From Flavobacteriales bacterium (GTDB lineage: Bacteria > Bacteroidota > Bacteroidia > Flavobacteriales_D > Sanyastnellaceae), in contig JAIXWP010000021.1 in NCBI GenBank assembly GCA_027491215.1, forward strand, positions 1-64,000: 64,000 nt of DNA. Reading direction: 5' to 3'. Below, in pieces: positions 8,073 to 34,215 of this stretch (position 1 is its first letter; the number at the start of each line of letters is the position of its first letter). The translations under genes and the position numbers were made by a program. The notes beneath the pieces are model-generated. The model saw nothing but the letters and a program-made list of their open reading frames with translations. It had not been told where the DNA came from and made no database searches.

Positions 8073-9113
8073 ATGAGCGACTCCAAGAAAAAGGCTTCCG
8101 ACCGAGCCATAGCAGGATTGAAGAAGAAGGCCACACCGATGGCCGCAAGTGCCTACTTGGAGGGCATTTTAAAAGGTGACGTCAACCTACTTTCACAAGC
8201 CATTACTCTTATCGAAAGCGCTGTTCCAGCGCATCGAAAAATTGCCGAAGAAATAATCAATGGATGTTTGCCTCACACCGGAAACGCTATTCGTATTGGT
8301 ATTACAGGAGTTCCTGGCGTCGGTAAAAGCACATTCATCGAATCGTTTGGCAGCTATTTAATTTCAAATTTTGGGAAAAAATTGGCGGTGTTAGCCATCG
8401 ACCCTTCGAGTCCGATTAGCAAGGGTAGTATACTTGGCGACAAAACAAGAATGGAAGAGTTGTCGATGAATAAGTCAGCCTTTATTCGCCCGAGCCCTTC
8501 AGCTGACACCCTTGGTGGTGTAGCACAAAAAACAAGAGAGAGTTTATTGCTTTGTGAAGCCGCGGGCTTTGATATAATATTAATCGAAACCGTGGGTGTG
8601 GGACAAAGCGAAACTGCCGTGCATCAAATGACAGACTTCTTCTTGCTACTTATGTTAGCGGGGGCGGGAGATCAATTGCAAGGTATCAAACGCGGCATTA
8701 TGGAAATGTGCGATGCACTAGTGATTACTAAGGCTGACGGCGAAAACAAGAATGCAGCAAATAGAGCGAAGGCTGAGTACCTCAGCGCCCTTCATTTTTA
8801 CCCACCAAAAGAATCGGGTTGGATACCCAAAGTAGATGCGTGCAGCGCTTTGACAAAAGAAGGCATGGATCGCGTTTGGGATATTATTTCTCAACATCAT
8901 CAATGGCTTTCTGAAAGAGGACTCCTTCAATCGATTCGGAATTCTCAAGATCTCTCTTGGATGAAAGAAACATTGACGGATAAGGTACTTCAAGATTATT
9001 TTCAATCACCTGAAGTCATTGCGGAAATAAAAAAAATGGAAGCAGAAATTTCTGCAAAGAAAATCACACCATTTCAAGCAGCCGAACGTTTGTTCGGCTT
9101 GAAGAAAAATTAG
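8073..9113 (+). CDS. meaB: Methylmalonyl-CoA mutase-associated GTPase MeaB
   Basis: The 346-residue G3E-family P-loop GTPase protects and reactivates adenosylcobalamin-dependent methylmalonyl-CoA mutase. A helical N-terminal extension (1-70) precedes the P-loop GVPGVGKS (79-86). Then come AIDPSSPISKGSILGDKTRM (108-127), typical of MeaB/ArgK, Walker B-like ETVGVGQSE (172-180), base-recognition ITKAD (about 218-222), and a C-terminal helical dimerisation region. The mutase genes mutA/mutB are not in the window, so the partner is inferred. The final 4 bp overlap the convergent small membrane-protein gene, and the end of the coding region contains a strong hairpin (9073-9103). Confidence 0.93.
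   Translation: MSDSKKKASDRAIAGLKKKATPMAASAYLEGILKGDVNLLSQAITLIESAVPAHRKIAEEIINGCLPHTGNAIRIGITGVPGVGKSTFIESFGSYLISNFGKKLAVLAIDPSSPISKGSILGDKTRMEELSMNKSAFIRPSPSADTLGGVAQKTRESLLLCEAAGFDIILIETVGVGQSETAVHQMTDFFLLLMLAGAGDQLQGIKRGIMEMCDALVITKADGENKNAANRAKAEYLSALHFYPPKESGWIPKVDACSALTKEGMDRVWDIISQHHQWLSERGLLQSIRNSQDLSWMKETLTDKVLQDYFQSPEVIAEIKKMEAEISAKKITPFQAAERLFGLKKN
9073..9103. other. Long hairpin inside the 3' end of meaB
   Basis: TTCAAG (9073-9078) and CCGAAC (9082-9087) pair with GTTCGGCTTGAA (9092-9103) around a four-base loop, giving 12 base pairs with a three-base bulge. It encodes AERLFGL of MeaB. Neither side has a good T tract, so it is not a classic terminator, but it sits at the end of two convergent genes. 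Confidence 0.4.
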
Positions 9114-9451
9114 CGCACATCTCCATCTAAATACAAATCGATCATTCCAATCAAGAATCGAGCGATAAATGCGCAAATGAAGAATGCCGAAGCGACAATG
9201 CGAATAGTCTTTTGACGTCCTTGGAGTACATCAAATTTGCTAATAGTATCTACGAAAATAGAAGCGATGGCCAAGAATTCCAAAAAGGTCAATAGCCCCC
9301 AGTGTTCTTTTACACTCAAATAAAAACTCGCGAAAACCCTTGGCACATCTGCGATAAAGAACTTCGAAGACCAATAAAGAATATTATAAACTGTTAGGAT
9401 AGCCATCACAGTAATCGTGATGGGACTTTTCGAATTCTCTTTCTGATTCAT
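9110..9451 (-). CDS. Hypothetical small membrane protein (three hydrophobic segments)
   Basis: The 113-residue protein has a polar N-terminus (MNQKENSKSP) and three likely membrane segments (about 12-31, 51-68 and 83-104) separated by short charged loops. I recognise no family. It is preceded by a plausible start at 9451 with AAGAAT spacing rather than a clear Shine-Dalgarno. It follows porP/sprF divergently by 21 bp and ends 4 bp inside the convergent meaB gene (shared TTAG). The composition looks like a real inner-membrane protein, but function is unknown. Confidence 0.55.
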   Translation of the reverse strand: MNQKENSKSPITITVMAILTVYNILYWSSKFFIADVPRVFASFYLSVKEHWGLLTFLEFLAIASIFVDTISKFDVLQGRQKTIRIVASAFFICAFIARFLIGMIDLYLDGDVR

Positions 9452-9472: not shown

Positions 9473-10480
9473 TTAAATATAATCAGGACAGACTTTGCGA
9501 ACAGGGGCAATTTTTGGTGAGGGAGGAATGATGTAAATCACACCAAATTCGAGCCCTCCTCTATTGTTACTTGCAGGTTCCAAATCGCTCAAGTTGATAT
9601 CGTAGCTCACGCCAACGTCCCATTGATGATATCGTATTCCTGCCAACAAGTATCCAGCATCCTTTGTTCGGGCAAACGCTCCTGCATACAGCGCCTCGTA
9701 AGCCCATGAGTTCGGCTGGATAGTATAATGAACGCGCCCGCCTAGATCAAACTCTCGAAACTTCCCTTGATTCATAAACAGTCCCATAGGCTCGATAGTC
9801 CACTGTTCATCAATCTTATATTGATAGCTTCCATGCAATACCCATCGTGGATCGAGGCGAACAAACGCCTCATCAAAGAAACTTTGTTTCGGCGCAGACA
9901 AGTTGAAGAGTGATGTTCCCAAAGTCCAAGACTTTTGATCATCCACTACTCTTCTGTAATGCCCTCCTATGTGTAGATTCATATATGCTCGGCTATCACG
10001 CGAATAAGACTCTCCCGAACTTAGCGACGGATCGTAAAATAGCCCGTTCCATTGATTATCATAATTCAATGCGCTATAATCAATGCTCATCAAAGTCAGT
10101 CCTAACATCAAACCTACAGTCAACTGATCTTGCGGTCTATTGGGTAAGACTAATGCCTTTGATACCGCTCCATTTATCATCGTAGTGGTCAACTGTGAAT
10201 CACCTGCCTTGTCCGTAAAGATGGATAGTCCTGCATTGACATCTTGCTTTGTTAGATGTGGTTTGTCCACCGCAATTCCCCATGTAGAATAAGGCACTGT
10301 AACACTTCTCCATTGGGTTCGTTGATTTCCCACAAATCTCCAATCTCCGTCAAACTGTCCAGTTAGCGCTGGATTCAATGAAAACGGACTTTGATAAAAC
10401 TGGGAGAAATGGATGTCTTGCGCACAAGATAAAATCGTGCAGGAAATGAAAAGGATGATATGTAAAAAACGCATCCTCAT
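9473..10480 (-). CDS. PorP/SprF family T9SS outer-membrane protein
   Basis: The 335-residue protein has a signal peptide (cleavage near SCAQD) followed by the PorP/SprF signature: QDIHFSQFYQSPFSLNPALT (about 20-40) and WRFVGNQRTQWRSV. Alternating beta strands throughout predict an outer-membrane barrel. SprF is needed for surface delivery of the adhesin SprB in Flavobacterium johnsoniae, and PorP belongs to the Porphyromonas T9SS apparatus. Its ATG overlaps the stop codon of the adhesin gene by 4 bp (ATGA), so the two are translationally coupled. This argues for a dedicated SprF-type partner of that adhesin rather than the core PorP. Confidence 0.9.
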   Translation of the reverse strand: MRMRFLHIILFISCTILSCAQDIHFSQFYQSPFSLNPALTGQFDGDWRFVGNQRTQWRSVTVPYSTWGIAVDKPHLTKQDVNAGLSIFTDKAGDSQLTTTMINGAVSKALVLPNRPQDQLTVGLMLGLTLMSIDYSALNYDNQWNGLFYDPSLSSGESYSRDSRAYMNLHIGGHYRRVVDDQKSWTLGTSLFNLSAPKQSFFDEAFVRLDPRWVLHGSYQYKIDEQWTIEPMGLFMNQGKFREFDLGGRVHYTIQPNSWAYEALYAGAFARTKDAGYLLAGIRYHQWDVGVSYDINLSDLEPASNNRGGLEFGVIYIIPPSPKIAPVRKVCPDYI

Positions 10481-13400
10481 CGAATCACTGTAATATTTCC
10501 TTTTTCAAAATAAGTAGCCCCTCCTTCGCATGTAGCTTCGAGGTAGTAAACGAACACTGCGGGATCTACAAGCTTATCTCTGAAGTAGCCATCCCATCCT
10601 ATGTACTGCGAATTCGTTTCAAAAACTTTTTCTCCCCATCGATCATAGATAACAAAATTGATCTTGGTCACATTCAGTGCTCGAACAAAAAGCTTTTCGT
10701 TGCGGCTATCACTGTTGGGGGTAAATGCATTTGGCACATAGATGCTCGGAGGTCCGCAAACAAAATCAAGCACTGTAATTCTCAAGCTATCCGTAGCGGA
10801 GCACTCGCCATCAGAAATAGTCACATAGTAAGTAGTGCTTTCAGTTGGCGTCGCTATTGGGTTTGGAATATTTGAATCACTCACAAACTCCACAGGTCCC
10901 CAAGAGTAAGTGTAACCACTTGGCTCTACATTTAATTGCACGGTTTGTCCAACGACAATTGTAGTAGGACTTCCAGTAGCATTAATACTCATGCTTTGCA
11001 GCTCGCTCACATCAACGGTTACATCGTCTGTTGCAGTGCATCCCTCAGGCGTATTTGACACCACCGTAAAAGTGGTTGTTTCATTCACAACAACTTCAAC
11101 CTGCGAAGTATTCTGTCCTGAAATAATCAAGTCTTCTGGCGACCAATTATATGTAAAGCTGTTGTTGGGATTAACGATAGCTAACTCAACAGTATCTCCG
11201 ACACATGCTGTGAAATCACCTTCGATCTCTGTTTGAAACGAAACGATATTAATTTCCATTTCATCAGAAGCCTCACATCCGTTCACATCAGCAGTAACAT
11301 ATACTGTAGTCGGTTGGAGAATATTAGGGTTGAAAACCAACTCTCCCACACCTTCGAGGACAGGAATAGTAGGGTTAGGACTAAGGCTCCAAGTAATGGT
11401 GGCATTGACATCAGAAACCGATGCATTAATGACTTGGATTCCTCCATCACATAGGACTAGATCATCAGGTAACGTGATAGATATATCCGACACGATGACA
11501 TCTTGAAATACAGTATCTACGCATGCTCCATGCTGAATCAACAAAGTATAACTTGTAGATTCACCAGGACTAAAAATTGGATTCGGATCATTTGCATCGC
11601 TGAGATAAAGAGAAGGTGTCCACTGATAAGTATCTCCAGGAATAACATTATCTGGGCCTATTTCCACAAACTCATCATTGCAAGAAACAACATCTTCTAA
11701 TGTGGTGGTTGATGGTTCAATGATCTCTATCGTCTTACGAATGGTGTCTTGTAAATTACAGGTTTGGGGATTGAGCACTACTAGCTCTATCTCATAAGTT
11801 CCCGGAGAAGAAAAAGTATATGTTGGTTGAAAAAGCGACGATGAAAACAATCCACCAAAGTCCCATTCAAATGATTGTCCGAGTTGACTATTATTAATCA
11901 CCGTAATTGGTTGATTGACGCAAGCTGCAGGTGGCACTTGAAAATCAGCAATGGTAAGAGGTAATTCAAAATTGAATTTGAAAACACCATTATTACAATT
12001 GAAAGAATTGTTGGTCGCGCTCACCACTCCACCCATTGGGAAGATTGGGAAATCATCATTACTGCCGCAGCCCGCACAAACACTTTGATAGATAATACCT
12101 CGTCGATCAAATCTACTTGTTCCGCCATCCACGTGTTCTTGGCTCGTGAGTCCACCAAAGAAAGAGGCGTACACTAAATCACTTGCATCGCTTTCAATAA
12201 CTAACAAATAGAAATCACCTCCATTGGTAGATGACTGATAGGCATCAGATGTAGTGGTCATACCCGTAGTCGTATCGGTATTCGTATTGGTGCTTGTATT
12301 GGTGGTTCCGCCCCAACCGCTGAGATAAATTTTATCACAAACATCTACTGTAAATGCCGCAGGAGAAAGATTGCATTTGTCTTCGCCCGTTCCGAAAACA
12401 GTAGACCAAATCAATTGACTTAGATCTCCATTCATTTTTGTAACAAGCATGCCACTGTTGGGCTCGCTCCATCCTGCGTTGATTACAAAAGTGCTTCCAT
12501 TGGCAAGCGTTTGCCCATAGACCACCACATTATTTTCAGAATCAACTTCTACAAAATACAATTGATCATATTCATTTGCTCCGAGGAATGTTGCGTCCAA
12601 CAATGAACTACCTGCTTCATTCCATTTTGCGATAAATCCATCTGCACTTCCGCCTTGGTAGCTCGACTGATAAGCCCCTGCAGGCATGTTGTATGTAATG
12701 CTGGTGGTACCTCCACAGAGATAAACTTCATTATCATCATTTACAGAAACACTATTTCCAGATTCAAATCCAGGACCACCGAAGAAGCTACTCCAAATGA
12801 TGTCAGAAAGATCAGGTTGAAGTTTTATAACACACGCATCTAGATTTCCTCCAAGAATATTTTGAGCGCCATTCACAATAGGGAAATTAGTGCTGTAGGT
12901 ACTGCTTGCAATTAAGATATTACCGTCATTATCGAGGTCTACTTCTCCGCGAAATTCGTCGGCGTAGTTAAACTTCAAAGCAGCCGCAGTATTCACACCA
13001 TCATTCGCAGATCCTCCGATAAATGTAGAGGCTTCAAGATCGCTTCCGTCTTGAGATAGAATCGTTACCACGATATCACTACCATTGACATAATCAGTCC
13101 CTACTCCTTGCGGAGCAAAAGCGGCACCGCCGCTGAATACAGTATCAAACGCTCCAGTAGTGGTGGGATAGCTTGGGCTACTTGTGGTTCCGTAAACAAC
13201 CACTTCGTCATTTGAATTGCAGATCAAACTGTGTGGCAATTCATCGTTTGGTCCACCAATAAAGGTACTCCAATGCATAAAAGATCCAGACTCATCGTAC
13301 TTCGAAATGGCCATATCAGTTCCGGGAAGTCCACCGCCATCACCGCCCGCCCAAGTAACTTGATAAGCACCCACCGTGGTTGGGTAGCCTTGACCAAAAG

Positions 13401-14220
13401 CGCTGCTACCGCTGAATAGATTCCCCTCGCTATCGTAGGTGGCGGTATAGCCAAAATTATCCGCAAAGCTTCCGCTATATGTACTAAACACAAGCACAGG
13501 ATCAATGATGAGTGTATGTTGCTTGTCGTAACCTTTCGGGAATTTGAATTGCACCACACCATTGCTTAAACGGAACTCGCAAGGCACTAATACCTTCGAT
13601 CCTTCGATGAATTGATAAGCGATGGGAGCTTGCTCGTAATAAGTAAAAACAGAACTACTAATCTTTAACCTTCCATCTTCTATAATTGGTCCTTCTACCC
13701 CCTCATACTTCCATTGAATAATCGAAGGGTCCGCTCCTGGAAATACGATCCAATCATATTTCAATGAAAAATCTTCTACATAATAGTGCAGGTTAATACC
13801 ATTATACAAAGCCTGATAATTGACATCGCTGTATGCGCGACATCGCCCAGCCCATTGCTCTTTATTATTTCCAAGAAAAAAATTATAATACGCTTTCTGA
13901 ATCCCCGCGGCCGTATGCCTAACAGACTCATTGGTATTTAAAAATTGTTGCTGAAACACATGACCTGAAAAACGCTTTTCACCGGGTACAGGAACTTTAC
14001 CTCCGTTGTGAATCGCAGCGATCGGACTTAGATCGTAAAAGTGAAATGTGAATTTATTTTTTTCAAGAAAAATCTTACCATGCTCCACGTCTGTAGCGTA
14101 GCGCACACTCTGGGGCCATTGACCTTTATTTTCTACAATATCAAAATAGCTATCTACCTGCGTGAAAGCAGACGATGTAAATACCATTAAGAATATCAGA
14201 GCGCTAAAGGTTTTACGCAT
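10477..14220 (-). CDS. SBBP/PKD-repeat surface adhesin with T9SS type B (CHU_C) sorting domain
   Basis: The 1247-residue protein starts at ATG 14220, which gives a clean signal peptide (MRKTFSALIFLMVF..., cleavage near AFTQ). A longer frame to 14262 would overlap the upstream gene. The N-terminus (about 20-250) has the DUF7948-like region VENKGQWPQSVRYATD. A long SBBP-type beta-propeller array follows (about 255-760; repeated WSTFIGG, WSSFFGGPG, ASFFGG). Then a PKD domain (FEWDFGG...FSSPGTYEIEL), several Ig/PKD-like modules with repeats of TPTESTTYYVT type, and the C-terminal gliding-motility-associated domain (YVPNAFTPNSDSRNE, YDRWGEKVFE, W-D-G). Type B cargo commonly travel with PorP/SprF-like partners, as here. 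A surface adhesin role is inferred from the architecture. Confidence 0.88.
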   Translation of the reverse strand: MRKTFSALIFLMVFTSSAFTQVDSYFDIVENKGQWPQSVRYATDVEHGKIFLEKNKFTFHFYDLSPIAAIHNGGKVPVPGEKRFSGHVFQQQFLNTNESVRHTAAGIQKAYYNFFLGNNKEQWAGRCRAYSDVNYQALYNGINLHYYVEDFSLKYDWIVFPGADPSIIQWKYEGVEGPIIEDGRLKISSSVFTYYEQAPIAYQFIEGSKVLVPCEFRLSNGVVQFKFPKGYDKQHTLIIDPVLVFSTYSGSFADNFGYTATYDSEGNLFSGSSAFGQGYPTTVGAYQVTWAGGDGGGLPGTDMAISKYDESGSFMHWSTFIGGPNDELPHSLICNSNDEVVVYGTTSSPSYPTTTGAFDTVFSGGAAFAPQGVGTDYVNGSDIVVTILSQDGSDLEASTFIGGSANDGVNTAAALKFNYADEFRGEVDLDNDGNILIASSTYSTNFPIVNGAQNILGGNLDACVIKLQPDLSDIIWSSFFGGPGFESGNSVSVNDDNEVYLCGGTTSITYNMPAGAYQSSYQGGSADGFIAKWNEAGSSLLDATFLGANEYDQLYFVEVDSENNVVVYGQTLANGSTFVINAGWSEPNSGMLVTKMNGDLSQLIWSTVFGTGEDKCNLSPAAFTVDVCDKIYLSGWGGTTNTSTNTNTDTTTGMTTTSDAYQSSTNGGDFYLLVIESDASDLVYASFFGGLTSQEHVDGGTSRFDRRGIIYQSVCAGCGSNDDFPIFPMGGVVSATNNSFNCNNGVFKFNFELPLTIADFQVPPAACVNQPITVINNSQLGQSFEWDFGGLFSSSLFQPTYTFSSPGTYEIELVVLNPQTCNLQDTIRKTIEIIEPSTTTLEDVVSCNDEFVEIGPDNVIPGDTYQWTPSLYLSDANDPNPIFSPGESTSYTLLIQHGACVDTVFQDVIVSDISITLPDDLVLCDGGIQVINASVSDVNATITWSLSPNPTIPVLEGVGELVFNPNILQPTTVYVTADVNGCEASDEMEINIVSFQTEIEGDFTACVGDTVELAIVNPNNSFTYNWSPEDLIISGQNTSQVEVVVNETTTFTVVSNTPEGCTATDDVTVDVSELQSMSINATGSPTTIVVGQTVQLNVEPSGYTYSWGPVEFVSDSNIPNPIATPTESTTYYVTISDGECSATDSLRITVLDFVCGPPSIYVPNAFTPNSDSRNEKLFVRALNVTKINFVIYDRWGEKVFETNSQYIGWDGYFRDKLVDPAVFVYYLEATCEGGATYFEKGNITVIR

Positions 14221-14236
14221 TTGGAATGTGGTTATT

Positions 14237-15475
14237 CTATAGACGACTTGCGTTGCCCTCAAGTTGTACGTTTGAATCTACCTTTTTTCTAAAAATGTAA
14301 TAAGCCAATCCAATCAATACAAGATTTGCAAAGCCCATGAGGCCGCCTTCATCAAATATAAGCATCCATTGCCTTCCTACAATATCTGGGGAATTGACCA
14401 CTAGCGGAACAAAAAGAATTACCAAGAGTGCGATTTGCCAGCGCGCCTTTGACAGATTAGAGTTTTGTAGTTGAATAAATACGTAAATTAAAATGGGCCA
14501 TGTCCACATGAAATGCTCCGTATCGGTATGAATCAAATTTGGCATCAATGCGATGAGCATAAAAAACTCGATGAAAAACGTTTGACGCTTTTCTGGATTG
14601 GTCTTATTCTTTTGGAAAATAATATAAAACAGCCCGAAGACTACAATCAAAATACCCAGTACAAGCGGCTTTCCAGACTCAAATCCGATTGGATGAAGTA
14701 TCCACATATTGTAAATGCCATAAATGGTATTAGGACTACTAGCAATATCAAAACCGGGATGGAGATAAACGTCGGTCCATTGTTGAAGTAGCATCCAACC
14801 TGTAGATGGTCCATAAAGAAGTACAGGAATAAAAAGTCCAACAACGACAGTTGCTAGCGAGATAAGGACATACTTAAAACGAGATTTAAGAATTCCCCAA
14901 ATGAGTATGAGCGCATATGCTGGCTGAAACAATAAAATAACACCCGTAATTATTCCTGCCTTGCTATCCTTCTGCTGAAATAGTTTTATGAAGACTGCAA
15001 AAAACATCATATGAAAAAACACATTCAGGTTTCCTAAATGCAATTCCCGTTCTATATGATCGACTAGAAACAAATTCACTAAGACCAAAAGCCATCCTCT
15101 ATTCTTTGCTTCTAGTCCAATATTTTTCTCTAACCAATAAACGATGTATAGGGAAAAGACAATGACAGAAGATAGAATTAAGAAATAATAGAGAGCACTT
15201 GAGACGCCTAGCGGCAATAGTGTGAATGGTGCGAATAAAATGATCGTGATAGGACTGTACCGATAGAAGCCTGCACCACCATCGAGCGATATCCCATAAA
15301 TTTCTTTAGAGCTAAAAAGTCGTGAGGCAGCTTCGTAATACACCTCAAAATTGGACACCCCGCTTCTATGATGGAGTTTTTGAAGAATAAAATAACCCAT
15401 GCAAAAAATACCTGCAAGTATGATATACTTGAGGGCTGCGCGCGAATCATTTATCCATTTAGCAAAAAGTCTCAT
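14237..15475 (-). CDS. GT87-like (DUF2029) polytopic glycosyltransferase
   Basis: The 412-residue protein has about ten membrane segments. The first extracytoplasmic loop carries FEVYYEAASRLFSSKEIYG and FYRYSPITI, the pattern of GT87/DUF2029 enzymes, which use polyprenyl-phosphate-linked sugars (mannose in actinobacterial members) on the periplasmic side. The Asp usually found early in that loop appears replaced by Glu (NFEVYYEA). The gene ends 16 bp before the adhesin start, suggesting one transcript GT87-adhesin-PorP. A role in glycosylating the adhesin or a surface glycan is only inferred from position. No promoter match better than TATTTTAG was found upstream. Confidence 0.72.
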   Translation of the reverse strand: MRLFAKWINDSRAALKYIILAGIFCMGYFILQKLHHRSGVSNFEVYYEAASRLFSSKEIYGISLDGGAGFYRYSPITIILFAPFTLLPLGVSSALYYFLILSSVIVFSLYIVYWLEKNIGLEAKNRGWLLVLVNLFLVDHIERELHLGNLNVFFHMMFFAVFIKLFQQKDSKAGIITGVILLFQPAYALILIWGILKSRFKYVLISLATVVVGLFIPVLLYGPSTGWMLLQQWTDVYLHPGFDIASSPNTIYGIYNMWILHPIGFESGKPLVLGILIVVFGLFYIIFQKNKTNPEKRQTFFIEFFMLIALMPNLIHTDTEHFMWTWPILIYVFIQLQNSNLSKARWQIALLVILFVPLVVNSPDIVGRQWMLIFDEGGLMGFANLVLIGLAYYIFRKKVDSNVQLEGNASRL

Positions 15476-15531
15476 CCGCTGCTAAAATAACAGAGGATGA
15501 GACTAGTATCTCTAATGATTTTAAACAGGAA

Positions 15532-16182
15532 CTATTTTTCCTTCAACAAATCAGCGAATTTCTTCTTGAACTTGTCCATTTTCGGAGAAATCACGATTTG
15601 GCAATAAGGCTGCGTGCCATTCAAATTGTAATAGTCTTGATGGTAATCTTCCGCTGCGTAGAAAACATCAAACGGAGAAACTTCGGTCACGATTGGGCTT
15701 CCCCAATCTCCGCTGGCATCAGCTGCTGCCTTGGCTAGCTCTGCAGTAGTGCGTTGTGCTTCTGAATGATAAAAAATTGCTGAGCGATATTGCGTACCCA
15801 CATCCGCACCTTGGCGATTCAATGTTGTTGGATCATGCGTTGCGAAAAACACCTCCACCAATTTTGCAAAGCTCACTTGGTTTGGATCGAAAGTCACTTG
15901 AATAACTTCCGCATGTCCTGTTGTTCCTTGGCAAACTTCCTTGTAAGAAGGATTTTTGATATTACCGCCACTGTAGCCACTCGCTACTTTTTTTACCCCT
16001 TTGATATCTTGGAAAATAGCTTCCACACACCAAAAGCATCCGGCCCCAAAGGTGGCCACCTCTAAACTGTCCATAGATGTTATTTTTTCGTCAGATGATG
16101 TTTTGCTAGGTTGTGCTGTGCTCATCTGTCCACAGCTTGAAAATGTAATGGCTAGCGCCGTAAGCAACAAGAGATGTTTCAT
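15532..16182 (-). CDS. msrA: Peptide-methionine (S)-S-oxide reductase MsrA, lipoprotein form
   Basis: The 216-residue protein contains a complete MsrA domain: GCFWC (48-52) with nucleophile Cys49, then GYSGG (about 69-73), GHAEVIQV and the C-terminal DYHQDYY. It reduces methionine-S-sulfoxide in proteins. The N-terminus MKHLLLLTALAITFSSCGQ is a lipoprotein signal with lipobox Cys17, so the enzyme should be membrane-anchored outside the cytoplasm. Resolving cysteines at the C-terminus are limited (one in PYCQIV), so recycling probably uses a thioredoxin-like partner that is not adjacent. A short unknown membrane-protein gene lies upstream. Confidence 0.93.
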   Translation of the reverse strand: MKHLLLLTALAITFSSCGQMSTAQPSKTSSDEKITSMDSLEVATFGAGCFWCVEAIFQDIKGVKKVASGYSGGNIKNPSYKEVCQGTTGHAEVIQVTFDPNQVSFAKLVEVFFATHDPTTLNRQGADVGTQYRSAIFYHSEAQRTTAELAKAAADASGDWGSPIVTEVSPFDVFYAAEDYHQDYYNLNGTQPYCQIVISPKMDKFKKKFADLLKEK

Positions 16183-24882: not shown

Positions 24883-27800
24883 TTATTTAATAACAGAAAC
24901 CAATCCTTGGTAAACTTTTGTCTCGGCGCTCTGCTCTACCTCAATCACTAATCGATAAGAATAGGTATCGCTCTCAGTGTAGAAATCACTGCCCTTCGCA
25001 TCTCCCAACCAAGCTCTTGATGGATCCTCTGTTTCAAATATTACCTCACCCCATCTATTGAATACCGTGAACTTGTATTGCTTTATAAACTCCTTGCCTT
25101 CCATCTCTGGTTTGAACACATCATTCAAACCATCTCCGTTGGGAGTAAATGAATTTGGAATGTAAACCTGGAAGTCATTGGTAATGGTCACATAAATGGT
25201 CTTGTTGTCTTCACATCCAAACAAATTAGTTGTGGTCAATGTCACTGGCCATCTGCCTGGACCTGCAAACTCATGTGTAGGATTTTCGTCCACTGACTGA
25301 GTGTTATCTCCAAATGACCAAGAGTAAGTTTCGCCATCTTCACTTTCATTGGTGAAATCTATTGTTGGATAGAATATCGTTGCCTCGAGCGTACTTGGTC
25401 TGAAATCAGCAACTGGCAAGCTATACGTTTCAATCATATTGTGCTGCACCAATGTGTCCTTACAACCCTCCGAAGAAGTTGCAATCAATTGCACATCGAA
25501 TACACCTTGATCATTAAAAATATGATTCGGTGAAGAATTGACAGATTGATCTCCATCACCAAAATTCCATACAAAGCTTGTAGCATTAGTACTTTGATTG
25601 ACAAAAGCAACATTCAAATCAAGACATCCATTCGCTTTATCAGAACTAAATGCTGCAACAACCGGAGGATGAACAGTGAACGTTGCATCGCTCATATCTG
25701 AACAACCATATTGATTGGTAGATGACAACTGAATATAGAAGTTACCTGGACTTCCAAACTGGAAAGATGGTGTAGCATCAGTAGAAGCAACATCAGAGTT
25801 TACGGTCCATGTATATGTCTGTTGACCTGCTGTAACACCTGTTGGCTCTATCATTATTGGATAGTCACAGCTTGATACAATTGGCAATGTAAACGTTGTT
25901 GGCGTTACAGGATTAATGGTAACAAAAGTTGAATAAGTATCGCTACAGCCAAATGTATTCTCAACAGAAAGTACTACTTCTTGATTGATTGGCTGACTGA
26001 GGTTGTTAGAAAATGTGTGGCAGGTCTGTGCTTCATTATTGGTGAACCCATCACCAAAATCCCAATTCGTGGTATTAGCACCAACACTTGAATTGATTGG
26101 ACAGATATCAAACGGCGCACATCCTTCATGGTTAGCTAACTCAAACATTGCAACAGGATTTGAATGCACGGCAATTTCTGCTTCTGCATGTGCCTCGCAG
26201 TTATTTGCTGCTACAGCTGACAACTCTACTGAATATGTTCCACCGGTTGCATAATCCTTGTTCAATGTAAGCAAGCTTGATGTTTCTCCATCACCGAAAT
26301 TCCATTCGAAATTAGATGCGCCTGTTACTGTTGCGTCAAATAAAATTTCTTCAAATTGACAAGTTTCATCGGCACTTATTGTAAACGAAATGGTTGGTGA
26401 TTGATGAACCAACACAACGGTTGATGTTGTATCAAAGCCACAACCATCTGTTGCATATTGATAAACTGTATAAGAACCTTCAGCATTGTATGAATGCTCA
26501 GCGGTTGGGCCCATGGCCACAACATTTGGAACAAATGAATACTGAATCATTGTTCCTCCTGTTCCTGTGTTTTGTACTTCTACATCTACAGGTGTGCAGC
26601 CTTCATTTACACTAGAAGACATTGAAGCATGAACCAAGTTTGGATTTACTGTCAACTCTTCGACAGTCACATCACTACCACAGTTATTGTAAACGGTCAA
26701 CTCAATTTCAAAAGTCGTTGCTGTGTTTCCTGTGATATACGTTCTCGTTTCTGGCTCTGGCATATTTGAAGTAAAACCATCTCCAAAATCCCATTCGCAA
26801 GCTGTGGCTGTTCCTGTTGAGTTGTTTTCAAATGAAACTGTCACCGGCGAGCAAGTAGTACTAACGATAATTGGTGTAAACACAGCATTCGGACGTGGCT
26901 GTACGGTAAGATTGACATGGTCTGTCGCACTTCCGCATGCATTTGAAACTGTTACATCAGCAGTATAATTTGTCACATCAACATTCTCAATATATGTCTG
27001 TGAAATTGGAGAAGCTTGATTTGAAGTATTTCCATTTCCATAGTTCCATGCATAATTCAAATTATCTCCACCTGCTATTGCATTAAAGTTTACTTGAAGA
27101 GGTGCACATCCCTGTGTCACGTCACTTGATAATGAAATTGAAGGAGATTCTAAAATTTGAATCTGTTGGAATGCCGTATCTCTGCAGCTATTTCCAGTGA
27201 TTGCAATCAATCTAATATTATATGTTCCTGGAGCATTGTAATTTAATACCGTGTTGGTTCCTGCTTGATTAGCGCCTACACCTGAATTCCAAGAATATGA
27301 AGTTGCCCCAGAAGATGTATTTGAAGGAACGATGTTTACGTTCGAACAGCCTGTTGAAGAAGGTAATGTGAAAGCCGCATTTGGCAAGCCGTTGACAATC
27401 ATTGAGCGGTATGCGGTATCAGCACATGCACTTGAATTATCGACGTAGCGATAAAGCAAATTATAACTACCTACTCCAACTGTTGGATCAAAATAGTACT
27501 CGTCATCACCATCTTCATCATCATCCTCATAAACAACTCCAGCGCCTTGCCACTCACCACCTGCAGGGGTAGCGCCTTCCAGCTCCATTTCTTCGTCATT
27601 AAAACAGATGGCAGAATTAGGTCCTGCATTCACGTTTGGTTCTGCTTTTACTTGTATGCTTTTTTGATCACTCACTTGACATGAGCCTGTACCAATTGTG
27701 ATCGTGATGGTATGTGTGCCAACACCTGCAACAATTGGATTAAAAATTCCATTTGCAGTATCTACTACTCCATTACCTGACCATGTTCCTGTAGTTGAAG

Positions 27801-30009
27801 CATCAGAAGTTAAATCAACCAAACCTTCATTTCTACAAACACTCATGCTAGCTCCTGCATCAACACTAGGTGATGACGTTACTGTAATGATTCGAGTATC
27901 AGTGCCTATGCAACCTGATGCGTTTGTAAATGTGTATGTGAGAGCGTAGGTACCAATACCACATGGAGAAAACTGTCCACCAGCTGATACACAAGATCCG
28001 CTCCACGCGCCGCCTACAGGTGTTTGTCCTGTCAATTGAAATGGAGCACTTACATCACAAACTGTCAAGTCATTTCCAGCTTCAACTACCGGAAGTGCAT
28101 TTACTGTTACTGTAACAAAATCATTCGCAGTACAACCTCTCGCATCAACAATACTTAAAGTATATGATGTCGTTGATGTTGGAGTCGCTGTTGGATTTAA
28201 GCTCGATGGATTTGATAATGAACCACTGTTATTCCAAGAAGTAGTGTAAGGTGCAAGTCCTCCATTTAGTGTTCCATTCAACACAGTGCTTGCCCCAGAG
28301 CAAATAGCGGTATTTGATCCAGCATCTACTGTAGGATTACCAAATACATTCACGACAATCTGATCTGTGCTTGTACACACTCCAAGATTTACTGTATACG
28401 TCAATGTATAAGAGCCAACCACTGATGGTGAAAACACTCCAGCGGATGTTACATATACACTACCAGACCAAGTTCCACCTGTTGTGATTGGATTCAACTG
28501 AAAAGCAGTTGTACCTGCACATGCTGTGCGATCAACACCTGCATCAATTCCATTAGGTGCAATAACATTTACAATTTTTGTATCTGTTGCACTGCAACCA
28601 TTTGCAGAAATGAATGTGTATGTCAAAGTGTAATTGCCAATTCCAGGAGAAGTAAACAATCCGGTCAAACTCACTCCTGTTCCGCTCCAAGAGCCTCCCA
28701 CAGGAGTTTGTCCTGACATTTGAACTGGCGCAGATTGATCACAGATTGTCTGATCAGCTCCAGCATTTACAACTGGAGGTGTATTTACTGTAACAGTAGT
28801 GAAGTCGGAAGCCGTGCAGCCTCTTGCGTCTTGCACTGTCAAAGTATAGGAAGTAGTTGTTGTCGGGGTTGCAGTTGGATTAAGAATAGCACCGTTTGAT
28901 AATGAAGCACTATTGGTCCATGAATAGGTATTTGGTGCAAGTCCACCAATTGATGATGCAGCGAGAACGGTGCTACCGCCTAAGCAAATAGAAGCATTTG
29001 CTCCTGCATCTACAGTAGGATTTGCGAATACATTCACCATGATTTGATCTGTGCTTGTGCACAGACCATTATTTACAGAATAGGTTAAAGAATATGATCC
29101 AACAACGCTTGGAGTGAAAACCCCAGTTGATGTAACATAAGTACTTCCTGACCAAGTACCACCTGGTGTCACAGGATTCAATTGAAAAGCTGTTGTTCCC
29201 ACGCATGCCGAACGATCAAGTCCTGCGTTAATGACATCTGGAGAAACTACGTTTACAACGCGGGTATCATTAAAGCTGCATCCAATAGGAGTAACAAATG
29301 TGTATGTCAAAGTATAGCCACCTGTGCCGGGGCTTGTGAATAATCCTGTCGGACTAACACCTGTTCCTGACCACGCTCCGCCTGCTGGAGAAAAACCAGT
29401 CAATTGAACGGGAGCACTGTTGCTGCAAATATTTAAAGTCGGTCCAGCCTCTACAGATGTCGCAGCTTGAATAGCTACAGTTACCTGGTCTTGAGAGTTA
29501 CAAGATTCTGAATCCACAACCGTCACGCTATATGTAGCACCAGAACCAGTTGGACAAGCAATTGGATTTGCAGACATTGGATTGCTTACAGAACCTCCGC
29601 TCCAAGAATACAGCGTGATAGGACCATTCGGACTTGACGCCACAGCATTTAATTGATGGCAAGCTCCTGGGCAAATGGTAGCGTCCAAACCAGCATTAAC
29701 TGTTGGCCTAGGTCGTACAATTATGATTTTATCATCCGTTGCCACACAACCACTTCCATCTGTTGTGGTAAGGGTAAGTGTGTAGGTACCTACTGTGTTT
29801 GGAGTAAATGTATTGCCGTTGAGCATGGTTCCAGGAGCACCCGTCCATGTCCCACCACCCGGTAAATTGAGTGCAGGCGTATTTACACACGGATCTAGAT
29901 CTGGACCTGCGTTCGCTGTGCATTGAGCGTTGGTCTCTATTGCTAAGAATCCTAGAAGGATGATAAATAGAGACTTAAAATGATAATCAAGAGTTTTAAA
30001 ATGCTTCAT
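24883..30009 (-). CDS. Giant modular PKD/Ig-repeat T9SS type B (gliding motility-associated C-terminal domain) protein
   Basis: The 1708-residue secreted protein has a signal peptide (cleavage near NAQC). Residues 30-790 are short cysteine-containing beta modules of about 70-80 residues with recurrent NAGLD, GGTWSG, GSYTLTY and DQIVVNV motifs; the stretch 187-711 shows a three-module super-repeat. An acidic insertion (E828-E837) follows. About 890-1600 is a string of PKD domains (WNFGDG, FDFGDG-like motifs, TYSVELS). The C-terminal sorting domain (about 1615-1708) has YIPNSFTPNGDGLND and FNRWGEVIFE. No enzyme domain is recognised. It is likely a long surface filament or adhesin, comparable to SprB-like cargo, but no PorP/SprF gene is adjacent. 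Confidence 0.87.
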   Translation of the reverse strand: MKHFKTLDYHFKSLFIILLGFLAIETNAQCTANAGPDLDPCVNTPALNLPGGGTWTGAPGTMLNGNTFTPNTVGTYTLTLTTTDGSGCVATDDKIIIVRPRPTVNAGLDATICPGACHQLNAVASSPNGPITLYSWSGGSVSNPMSANPIACPTGSGATYSVTVVDSESCNSQDQVTVAIQAATSVEAGPTLNICSNSAPVQLTGFSPAGGAWSGTGVSPTGLFTSPGTGGYTLTYTFVTPIGCSFNDTRVVNVVSPDVINAGLDRSACVGTTAFQLNPVTPGGTWSGSTYVTSTGVFTPSVVGSYSLTYSVNNGLCTSTDQIMVNVFANPTVDAGANASICLGGSTVLAASSIGGLAPNTYSWTNSASLSNGAILNPTATPTTTTSYTLTVQDARGCTASDFTTVTVNTPPVVNAGADQTICDQSAPVQMSGQTPVGGSWSGTGVSLTGLFTSPGIGNYTLTYTFISANGCSATDTKIVNVIAPNGIDAGVDRTACAGTTAFQLNPITTGGTWSGSVYVTSAGVFSPSVVGSYTLTYTVNLGVCTSTDQIVVNVFGNPTVDAGSNTAICSGASTVLNGTLNGGLAPYTTSWNNSGSLSNPSSLNPTATPTSTTSYTLSIVDARGCTANDFVTVTVNALPVVEAGNDLTVCDVSAPFQLTGQTPVGGAWSGSCVSAGGQFSPCGIGTYALTYTFTNASGCIGTDTRIITVTSSPSVDAGASMSVCRNEGLVDLTSDASTTGTWSGNGVVDTANGIFNPIVAGVGTHTITITIGTGSCQVSDQKSIQVKAEPNVNAGPNSAICFNDEEMELEGATPAGGEWQGAGVVYEDDDEDGDDEYYFDPTVGVGSYNLLYRYVDNSSACADTAYRSMIVNGLPNAAFTLPSSTGCSNVNIVPSNTSSGATSYSWNSGVGANQAGTNTVLNYNAPGTYNIRLIAITGNSCRDTAFQQIQILESPSISLSSDVTQGCAPLQVNFNAIAGGDNLNYAWNYGNGNTSNQASPISQTYIENVDVTNYTADVTVSNACGSATDHVNLTVQPRPNAVFTPIIVSTTCSPVTVSFENNSTGTATACEWDFGDGFTSNMPEPETRTYITGNTATTFEIELTVYNNCGSDVTVEELTVNPNLVHASMSSSVNEGCTPVDVEVQNTGTGGTMIQYSFVPNVVAMGPTAEHSYNAEGSYTVYQYATDGCGFDTTSTVVLVHQSPTISFTISADETCQFEEILFDATVTGASNFEWNFGDGETSSLLTLNKDYATGGTYSVELSAVAANNCEAHAEAEIAVHSNPVAMFELANHEGCAPFDICPINSSVGANTTNWDFGDGFTNNEAQTCHTFSNNLSQPINQEVVLSVENTFGCSDTYSTFVTINPVTPTTFTLPIVSSCDYPIMIEPTGVTAGQQTYTWTVNSDVASTDATPSFQFGSPGNFYIQLSSTNQYGCSDMSDATFTVHPPVVAAFSSDKANGCLDLNVAFVNQSTNATSFVWNFGDGDQSVNSSPNHIFNDQGVFDVQLIATSSEGCKDTLVQHNMIETYSLPVADFRPSTLEATIFYPTIDFTNESEDGETYSWSFGDNTQSVDENPTHEFAGPGRWPVTLTTTNLFGCEDNKTIYVTITNDFQVYIPNSFTPNGDGLNDVFKPEMEGKEFIKQYKFTVFNRWGEVIFETEDPSRAWLGDAKGSDFYTESDTYSYRLVIEVEQSAETKVYQGLVSVIK
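27877..29451 (-). repeat. Coding super-repeat A-B-C-A-B-C-A within the giant T9SS protein
   Basis: Residues 187-711 contain two full copies and a partial third of a unit of about 228 residues (about 684 bp). Module A begins near 189, 417 and 644 (SAPVQLTG, SAPVQMSG, SAPFQLTG). Module B begins near 257 and 486 (TTAFQLNP in both). Module C begins near 329 and 558 (NPTVDAG in both). The DNA copies are visibly similar but diverged, with many synonymous changes, so the duplication is old or maintained by selection. Confidence 0.8.
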
Positions 30010-32262: not shown

Positions 32263-34215
32263 CTATTCAACGACCTTAAACTCTGTTCTTCTATTTTTTG
32301 CTCTTCCTTCTTCGGTATCATTCGTAGTGATTGGCACCGTTTCTCCATATCCTTTCGCACTTAATCTCTCACTTGCAATTCCTTGCTGAACAAGGTATTC
32401 AACAACTGACTTCGCTCTATTTTCTGATAACTTTTGGTTATCGGCATCAGCTCCGACATTATCGGTGTGACCACCGATTTCAATCTTCTGTGTAGGGTTT
32501 GCCTGCAGCAAAGAAACTAGTTTATTCAACTCAACTTTCGATGCTGGAAGTAATGCAAAACTATTACTGCCAAAGAATACATTGTTCAACACAATATTTG
32601 CACCCACCTTCAATTTCTGAAGTTGAATATTTAGCTCGTAAGGTTGTGTGCTATTGTAATTTTTTAAAGAGAAGTTTTCACTGTGAAATAAGTAACCTTC
32701 TTTACTTACGCTTAGCGCGTAATCTCTACCAGATGGAATACATAGAAGAAAATCGCCATAAGCATTTCCGCTATAAGTCTCTGCGATCAACTTGCCATTT
32801 TCAAGATCAATCAATTCCAGCTTAGCACCTAATTTTTTGAAACTTAGCTTATCGCTTACCACTCCTTTCACATAAGTTACCAAAGTTGGCTGAGCCCTTT
32901 CATGCAATTCAAAAGAATACAGATCGAGTCCACCAAAACCACCGGCTCTTTCAGAGGCAAACAAAGCCAACTTACCAGATGCCGCAACTTGGAGGGAGTT
33001 CTCATCCGCAGAGGTATTGATGGGGTAACCTAAATTTACAGGAGTGTCCCACTCCCCATTCGGAAGAATGGTACTCATGAAGATATCCAAACCTCCCATG
33101 CCTGGGTGACCATTGCTACTGAAATAGAGCGTGCGTCCGTCTGGGTGAATCATCACACTTTCTTCTTCAAAGATGGTATTTACGCGTCCAGGAATCTTTT
33201 GTGCAGGAGCCCATTTTCCATTATCCATAATGTACGAATAATATATATCCTGGTCCTTAATCCCTTGTGCAGAGCGCTTCCCACGAATAAAATAAAGTGT
33301 ACGACCGTCAGCACTATAACTTGGTTGGCTTTCCCAACTTCCAGAATTAATTCCTTGTCCTAAATTTTTTGCGTCAGACCATGCCTTTCCTTCTTTAATT
33401 GAAAAAAACAAGTCACAACTTCCAATTCCCTGTCTTGTCGCACCCCAAGAGCCATCAGCAGTTTCACAGGCAGTGAAGATCAAGGTTTGCCCATCGGCAC
33501 TAAGACTTGGAGCTCCTTCGTTTTGCACAGTATTAATCTCTACAACAGGCTGGGCATCACTCCATGACGTTCCAGTCATTCTAGAAGATATATAGAAATC
33601 CTCTTGCATTCCTCTAAATGCTCGATCATCTTTTACTAAGCGTGTGAAGAGCAATGTCTGTTCATCCGCAGTGATACATGGATAATATTCATCCATTTCT
33701 GTATTGATTGTGGCACCTAAGTTTTTTGGTTCGAATGGAACAGGACTGCCCATCGCATTTTTCGCATAAATACAACTGGAAAGAATCACTTGCGCTCTTT
33801 TTTCCAATTGCATGGTGGCTTTAGGAAATCTCATGTATTTACTTACGGACTGCTCAGCATCTGAATATTTTGCAAGAGCAAATTGACTTTCAGCGAGCAT
33901 TAGCCAACCATCCGTATAAAACGTCTCATCAATAGATAGTGCCTTCTGCAATGGCTCAATGGTCTTCTCGCTTTGGCCAAGATCGTCATACACCTGAGCC
34001 ATCATATAATAAGCTTCGATAAAATTCGGTTCTGTTTTAACTACTTCATCCAATTTAGACAACGCACCTGACTTGTCACGCAGATCGTACAGTGCAAGGG
34101 CTTCCTCGTATTGTTTGATAGCCTTTTTACTAGTTACACTGTAGTTCGGCTTAGGCTGAGCGATCGATAAAAAGGCTATGCCTGAGAATAATACGGTGAG
34201 GAAAAGATGCTTCAT
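32263..34215 (-). CDS. PorE-like OmpA family protein (TPR, PD40 propeller, CRD, OmpA_C)
   Basis: The 650-residue protein has a signal peptide (cleavage near SIAQP), TPR repeats (about 30-140: AIKQYEEALALYDL, EAYYMMAQVYDDLGQ), and a WD40-like PD40 propeller (about 165-430; repeated LFTR, LSADGQTLIFTA, YSADGRTLYFIRG, HPDGRTLYFSSNG). A carboxypeptidase-regulatory-like segment (about 445-530) and a C-terminal OmpA domain (about 540-650) with IGGHTDNVGADADNQKLSENRA bind peptidoglycan. This is the domain order of PorE, a periplasmic T9SS component in Porphyromonas. Unlike PorE there is no lipobox at the cleavage site. It could instead belong to a PorP/SprF-type accessory set. It is the first gene of an operon with the SGNH hydrolase. 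Confidence 0.85.
   Translation of the reverse strand: MKHLFLTVLFSGIAFLSIAQPKPNYSVTSKKAIKQYEEALALYDLRDKSGALSKLDEVVKTEPNFIEAYYMMAQVYDDLGQSEKTIEPLQKALSIDETFYTDGWLMLAESQFALAKYSDAEQSVSKYMRFPKATMQLEKRAQVILSSCIYAKNAMGSPVPFEPKNLGATINTEMDEYYPCITADEQTLLFTRLVKDDRAFRGMQEDFYISSRMTGTSWSDAQPVVEINTVQNEGAPSLSADGQTLIFTACETADGSWGATRQGIGSCDLFFSIKEGKAWSDAKNLGQGINSGSWESQPSYSADGRTLYFIRGKRSAQGIKDQDIYYSYIMDNGKWAPAQKIPGRVNTIFEEESVMIHPDGRTLYFSSNGHPGMGGLDIFMSTILPNGEWDTPVNLGYPINTSADENSLQVAASGKLALFASERAGGFGGLDLYSFELHERAQPTLVTYVKGVVSDKLSFKKLGAKLELIDLENGKLIAETYSGNAYGDFLLCIPSGRDYALSVSKEGYLFHSENFSLKNYNSTQPYELNIQLQKLKVGANIVLNNVFFGSNSFALLPASKVELNKLVSLLQANPTQKIEIGGHTDNVGADADNQKLSENRAKSVVEYLVQQGIASERLSAKGYGETVPITTNDTEEGRAKNRRTEFKVVE

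Follow-up and report, generated by a model that had tools for sequence, protein, structure and literature searches.

We analyzed a stretch of 64,000 nt (hereafter the window) from a member of the Flavobacteriales (GenBank assembly GCA_027491215.1, contig JAIXWP010000021.1, positions 1 to 64,000), in which three open reading frames (ORFs) follow one another on the minus strand at positions 9473–15475. In the 5′ to 3′ direction, they encode a polytopic membrane protein of the GT87 family, a cargo protein of the type IX secretion system (T9SS) with a type B sorting signal, and an outer-membrane protein of the PorP/SprF family. An initial annotation had described these three same-strand genes as tightly packed, and this was confirmed exactly: 16 bp separate the stop codon of the GT87 gene (14237) from the likely ATG of the cargo gene (14220), and the cargo stop codon and the ATG of the PorP gene share 4 bp (ATGA). 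The cargo ORF has an alternative TTG start at 14262, that is, within the GT87 gene; translation from the ATG at 14220 yields an N-terminus that, judged by eye, resembles a signal peptide. The initial annotation also proposed that the GT87 protein might glycosylate the cargo or its anchor glycan. The results described below point to a different reading, namely, that the GT87 protein is probably a catalytically dead GT-C protein with its fold and reading frame kept, an old neighbor of a standard pair of surface protein and shuttle.

The active site of the GT87 protein

Each of the three proteins was used to search 114 genomes of the family. GT87 was found in 39 of them, with identical results in the single-sequence and the profile search. 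The 35 sequences of at least 350 aa were aligned, and the fragments from G007, G027, G032, and G033 were excluded. The window protein differs at nine of the 35 columns on which the other 34 family sequences all agree (D42N, G65D, S68A, K72R, K184Q, H186A, F187Y, H240P, and N241G). In a leave-one-out analysis, every other row differed at no more than one of its 26–27 columns, and 29 of the 35 rows differed at none. Five of the positions changed in the window protein (D42, G65, K72, K184, and H240) are fixed in all 54 other sequences, including all 20 that were chosen from another family; the remaining four positions vary in that family.

The AlphaFold2 (AF2) model of the window GT87 protein is well formed, with a predicted local distance difference test score (pLDDT) of 92 and a predicted template modeling score (pTM) of 0.91. 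Its best structural match is the GT-C mannosyltransferase PimE (Z 26.6, 4.1 Å over 355 residues), and PIGU (8imx_U) is matched with Z 21.5. A profile alignment to PimE (9dm5) places the catalytic base D58 opposite N42 and the phosphate-binding K195 opposite Q184 (counted by hand). In PimE, the substitutions D58A, D58N, and K195A each abolish activity, both in cells and in vitro (PMC12041525). The window protein thus has the GT87 profile match and the GT-C fold of an active PimE-type enzyme, but lacks the catalytic Asp and the phosphate-binding Lys. Judged from these residues, it most likely no longer functions as a glycosyltransferase and may be a kept pseudoenzyme; many other invariant GT87 motifs are retained, and the reading frame is open. 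In the relatives, GT87 is probably active and would act as a PimE-type transferase that uses polyprenyl-phosphate sugars.

The branch leading to the window protein in the GT87 tree is long (1.11 vs. 0.43 for the sister G030). In a relative-rate test with G019 as the outgroup, the changes were distributed 47:27 for GT87 (p = 0.027), 111:98 for the cargo, and 21:24 for PorP. Values obtained with G025 as the outgroup (74:30 for GT87, 166:99 for the cargo) were set aside because G025 clusters with G030 in the tree of the cargo and is not a clean outgroup there; only the G019 result was therefore used.

Distribution and history of the GT87 gene

The region upstream of the cargo gene was readable in 37 genomes, of which eight have GT87 there, two have MsrA directly, and 27 have other genes. 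The eight genomes with GT87 followed by the cargo gene are the window genome, G030, G025, G019, G017, G023, G018, and G020, belonging to four genera (g1, g11, g8, and g6). Viewed from GT87, the 3′ neighbor was readable in 38 genomes and is the cargo gene in eight and another gene in 29, whereas in G082 a contig end follows, with the cargo gene at another site. MsrA is the immediate 5′ neighbor of GT87 in eight genomes (the window genome, G025, G019, G017, G023, G018, G020, and G082). In other genomes, GT87 often adjoins housekeeping genes, for example, TerB/DnaJ or DNA ligase. At 20 chosen GT87 loci from another family of the order, the immediate neighbors never included this cargo or PorP; PorP- or cargo-like genes were found two to four genes away at three of the 20.

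In the GT87 tree, the window protein groups with G030 and G025 (support 99/93), as vertical descent predicts. The cargo tree, which has a midpoint root only and carries a long-branch warning (G022 vs. the rest), places the g6 genomes deepest and the window genome, G030, and G025 in the other part. Because GT87 is followed by the cargo gene in eight of the 37 genomes over four genera, the order MsrA-GT87-cargo-PorP is probably old, dating from the family ancestor or near it, and was probably broken up in other lineages. The expectation that the three-gene order is conserved in relatives was thus borne out across four genera spread over the cargo tree, but it fails in most of the readable genomes and in both congeners.

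The genus is represented by three genomes, that is, the window genome, G039, and G040. Both congeners have MsrA directly before the cargo gene, followed by PorP and a gene for a protein of 113 aa, which is the order of the window without GT87. No match to GT87 was found in G039 (99% complete) or in G040 (69% complete, with the locus unbroken), and tblastn detected no GT87 remnant in the respective MsrA-cargo gaps of 79 and 117 bp. Since these two genomes have the cargo-PorP unit without GT87, the cargo does not need GT87. With GT87 before the cargo in eight of the 37 readable genomes, the link between the two genes is loose. A clade of G039 and G040 was rejected in the approximately unbiased (AU) test with p-AU = 0.02, an optimistic value given that the group was named after the tree had been seen; GT87 was therefore perhaps lost twice, independently, in the genus.

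The cargo-PorP pair and neighboring features

The cargo protein matches four models above cut-off: DUF7948 (213 bits), CHU_C (49.6 bits), TIGR04131 (41.0 bits), and Ig_7 (37.2 bits). TIGR04131 covers residues 1161–1246 of 1247, and the C-terminal type B signal recognized in the initial annotation is present. The PKD modules described there correspond to weak PKD-like matches, each under its own cut-off (PKD_4, 23.7 bits; PKD_6, 22.9 bits; PKD, 16.1 bits). Similarly, the profile search returned no SBBP model at E ≤ 1, but the claim of a propeller holds in substance because the predicted fold contains a beta-propeller at residues 243–755. The closest structure is CylK, a Friedel-Crafts alkylating enzyme (Z 35.5, 2.5 Å over 390 residues; across comparisons, Z 34–36 at 19–20% identity), and the likeness is one of fold alone. 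The AF2 model comprises the first 780 residues with a mean pLDDT of 77; residues 716–744 and other stretches are below 50, so that a conserved Cys motif is poorly modeled. A sequence search against solved structures gave a single match, with E = 0.95. No adhesin family model was detected in Pfam/NCBIfam scans, and 'adhesin' is a label that we infer for this protein. The papers returned by a literature search held no mention of DUF7948.

Within the cargo, the stretch EHVDGGTSRFDRRGIIYQSVCAGCGSNDDFPIFP (12037–12138) is nearly invariant across 21 orthologues and has relatives at two more sites of the genome, with 54–55% identity. Its conserved His, Asp, and two Cys residues suggest a metal-binding or structural site rather than the variable face of an adhesin.

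With stretches of at least 38% identity as the criterion for orthology, the cargo is present in at least 44 of the 114 family genomes; in G026, a PorP orthologue is present, and no cargo was read. PorP lies directly 3′ of the cargo gene in 40 of the 41 genomes with a readable downstream side, including the window genome. The lone exception is G082, in which the cargo gene is split over contigs; in G018, G020, and G037, the downstream side is cut by contig ends. The expectation of a dedicated SprF-type partner for the cargo is thus supported, and the PorP/SprF protein is likely its cognate shuttle and anchor. In Flavobacterium johnsoniae, type B cargos depend on cognate PorP/SprF shuttles, whose genes commonly lie directly downstream (PMC12618676), and SprF binds SprB (PMC9143113). 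The window genome (G000) has 14 PorP/SprF matches and 45 type B signal matches, 39 of them above cut-off, so that the cargo-PorP pair is one of many. It is an ordinary T9SS type B unit, one further example of a class already known. With 45 type B and 14 PorP/SprF matches in the whole genome, the many cargos that lack a shuttle gene of their own must share shuttles or take other routes.

The coordinates of the genes and features are listed in Table 1.

Table 1. Genes and features at and around the GT87-cargo-PorP locus of the window
Feature	Position	Strand	Size and basis
GT87-family (GT-C fold) polytopic membrane protein, predicted to be catalytically inactive	14237..15475	-	412 aa; PF09594 46.8 bits, above cut-off
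T9SS type B cargo: DUF7948, beta-propeller, Ig_7, weak PKD-like modules, CHU_C/TIGR04131 signal	10477..14220	-	1247 aa; domain models and predicted fold
Outer-membrane protein of the PorP/SprF family, probably the cognate shuttle/anchor for the cargo	9473..10480	-	335 aa; PF11751 120.2 bits, TIGR03519 156.6, above cut-off
Small hydrophobic protein	9110..9451	-	113 aa; no family model above cut-off; begins 21 bp past PorP
Terminator-like stem-loop with T tail between MsrA and GT87	15468..15504	-	RNA fold z −4.82
MsrA, upstream neighbor of GT87	15532..16182	-	PF01625 223.2 bits

The 113-aa protein has three membrane segments by eye and no Pfam match above cut-off. Among 41 PorP loci, its gene lies 3′ of PorP at 21; contig ends truncate some of the remaining 20. 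It yields a single match per genome in 100 of the 114 family genomes, including genera that lack this cargo, and only five weak matches outside the family in a sample of 399 genomes of the order. By its distribution, it is a family-wide gene. A role as a dedicated partner of the cargo-PorP pair was considered and ruled out on these counts.

The stem-loop between MsrA and GT87 was not equaled in any of 200 shuffles, and the GT87 ATG lies within its 3′ arm. A strong stem-loop with a T tail after MsrA suggests that MsrA is transcribed separately from GT87. The terminator scan did not list this stem-loop, probably since its loop limit is 8; counts of both the sigma-70 scan (22 vs. 18.9) and the terminator scan (8 vs. 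5.9) were close to background. The gaps after MsrA in the GT87-less genomes G039 and G040 also hold hairpin-T-run sequences, as seen by eye. The −7 promoter motif of Bacteroidota, TAnnTTTG, is enriched upstream of genes: it occurs before 38 of the 209 genes whose upstream gap is 100 bp or more, vs. in 21 of 690 coding windows. In the interval from 150 bp before to 60 bp after the ORF start, it was found at six of 31 full-length cargo genes, near the cargo start in G039, G040, G001, and G002 and inside GT87 in the window genome and G019. The window copy lies 98 bp before the TTG at 14262.

Further along the window, a second type B cargo of 1708 aa with PKD repeats is encoded at 24883–30009, and upstream of it, on the same strand, a TPR-PD40-OmpA protein, which we call PorE-like, at 32263–34215. 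The PorP match at 9473 is the only one on the contig.

Alternative explanations and comparison with known systems

The proposal that an active GT87 enzyme modifies the cargo or its anchor glycan draws on the operon-like packing, the same three-gene order in four genera, and the family-wide co-occurrence of the two genes. It is not supported here, because the catalytic Asp and the phosphate-binding Lys are replaced, GT87 is upstream of the cargo in just eight of the 37 readable genomes, and it is missing in the congeners. Moreover, G011 (96% complete) carries GT87 without a cargo orthologue among the matches listed. In Bacteroidota, proteins are O-glycosylated at the motif D[ST][AILMTV]. The density of this motif in full-length cargos is similar, at 5.5, 4.9, and 4.4 per 1000 aa, where GT87 is adjacent, elsewhere, or absent (5, 22, and 4 cargos, respectively). 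The type B protein PG1035 is reported not to be modified with anionic lipopolysaccharide (A-LPS) (PMC9143113). We therefore regard this proposal as highly improbable for the window protein. Alternatively, GT87 could still be an enzyme, working on an envelope glycan with a rebuilt active site and a different donor; E44 or D65, both close to the lost D42, would then serve as the base, K72R retains the charge, and the frame is kept. However, the phosphate-binding Lys has been replaced as well (Q184), K195A alone inactivates PimE (PMC12041525), and both the Asp and the Lys are present in every one of the 54 other sequences. This makes a rebuilt enzyme quite improbable.

Plain neutral decay would mean that the function was lost in the genus, by two deletions and one active-site loss, and that the frame is open since the inactivation is recent. 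The missing matches in G039 and G040, the possible two losses, and the long GT87 branch are consistent with such a course. The open frame is harder to reconcile with it: neutral change altering nine of the 35 codons left the frame open in only 13, 23, and 29 of 3000 simulations (kappa 1, 2, and 4). These simulations were conditioned on the invariant columns, took the gene as it is today as their starting point, and left indels out of account. The rarity of open frames disfavors plain neutral decay, as do the many retained motifs and the well-formed predicted fold, although AF2 can also fold decaying sequences, which weakens the argument from the fold. Neutral decay therefore appears unlikely.

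Several observations weigh against a dead protein that is merely an old neighbor. The window protein keeps the family residues Y46, Y73, N149, and H321, which correspond to Y62, Y92, Q163, and H322 of PimE, and its new acids E44 and D65 could in principle replace the lost base. The rate excess of GT87 is modest, as a relative-rate comparison of the window protein with that of G025 gave 56:38 (p = 0.08). GT87 and the cargo, the latter counted among the matches listed, co-occur above chance on raw counts in the family (both in 35 genomes, GT87 only in 4, the cargo only in 9, neither in 66). Most of this association comes from four genera, whose 64 genomes together have two GT87s and no cargo; without these genera, it is weak (35/2/9/4, p = 0.033, uncorrected for relatedness). 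In g3, a gene lies within about 4 bp upstream of GT87, and its one tested member has a T9SS signal of type A; in g10, the gene after GT87 encodes a homologue of the window's PorE-like protein. The loci concerned in these other genera are L066 3458–5011, L049 6345–8288, and L052 8256–10196. Some link in relatives is thus possible, given the co-occurrence, and active GT87s may have a part in the T9SS surface of other genera.

For the window itself, we infer no functional tie between GT87 and the cargo, and the reading of a catalytically dead neighbor of an ordinary secretion unit is the one that we favor. In this scenario, the cargo would reach the periplasm via its signal peptide and then leave through the SprA translocon, directed by the type B C-terminal signal; the PorP/SprF protein would collect the cargo and hold it at the surface. 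GT87 would have been inherited in the MsrA-GT87-cargo-PorP order and would have lost its catalytic base and phosphate-binding lysine in the species of the window. A further possibility, doubtful and based on analogy to PIGU, is that the protein lost catalysis but was kept in the membrane as a bacterial GT-C pseudoenzyme, where it would bind a lipid or glycan and assist in making, anchoring, or regulating the cargo. In the literature listed on GT87 in connection with type IX secretion and Bacteroidota, and on inactive GT-C proteins, no report of this case appeared. Should the window GT87 protein still be produced and serve a function, it would represent a naturally occurring GT-C pseudoenzyme of bacteria with a link to type IX secretion, and related genomes would then provide a series of matched counterparts in which the gene is apparently active, inactive, or deleted. 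The locus also calls for caution: a profile match and a tight gene order pointed to adhesin glycosylation, whereas the residues say that the enzyme is probably dead. Overall, the interpretation in the initial annotation is partly supported.

Among known proteins, PimE and the GT87 family resemble the window protein in the GT-C fold and in the four kept residue positions, and differ from it in the catalytic base and the phosphate-binding lysine. PIGU, a subunit of the glycosylphosphatidylinositol (GPI) transamidase, is a GT-C protein with SSW in place of the acidic motif (PMC12653191); the window protein likewise combines the GT-C fold with a replaced catalytic acid. PIGU, however, is part of a known complex, and its substrate channels are closed. 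The cargo-PorP pair, in turn, resembles the F. johnsoniae pairs SprB-SprF and Fjoh_3952-3951 in the C-terminal TIGR04131 signal and the PorP/SprF gene directly downstream. Like SprB-SprF, it has no adjoining PorE-like gene, a feature tied to mobile cargos such as SprB by the authors of the F. johnsoniae work (PMC12618676, PMC9143113). The description 'SprB-like' therefore fits the C-terminal signal and the partner gene, but not the protein as a whole: the SprB gliding adhesin is a giant repetitive protein of 669 kDa (PMC9143113), whereas the window cargo has 1247 aa, combines DUF7948 with a propeller, and yields no SprB repeat model at E ≤ 1 in the profile search. The window pair also differs from the F. 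johnsoniae pairs in its surroundings, with GT87 and MsrA upstream and a small family-wide membrane protein gene downstream.

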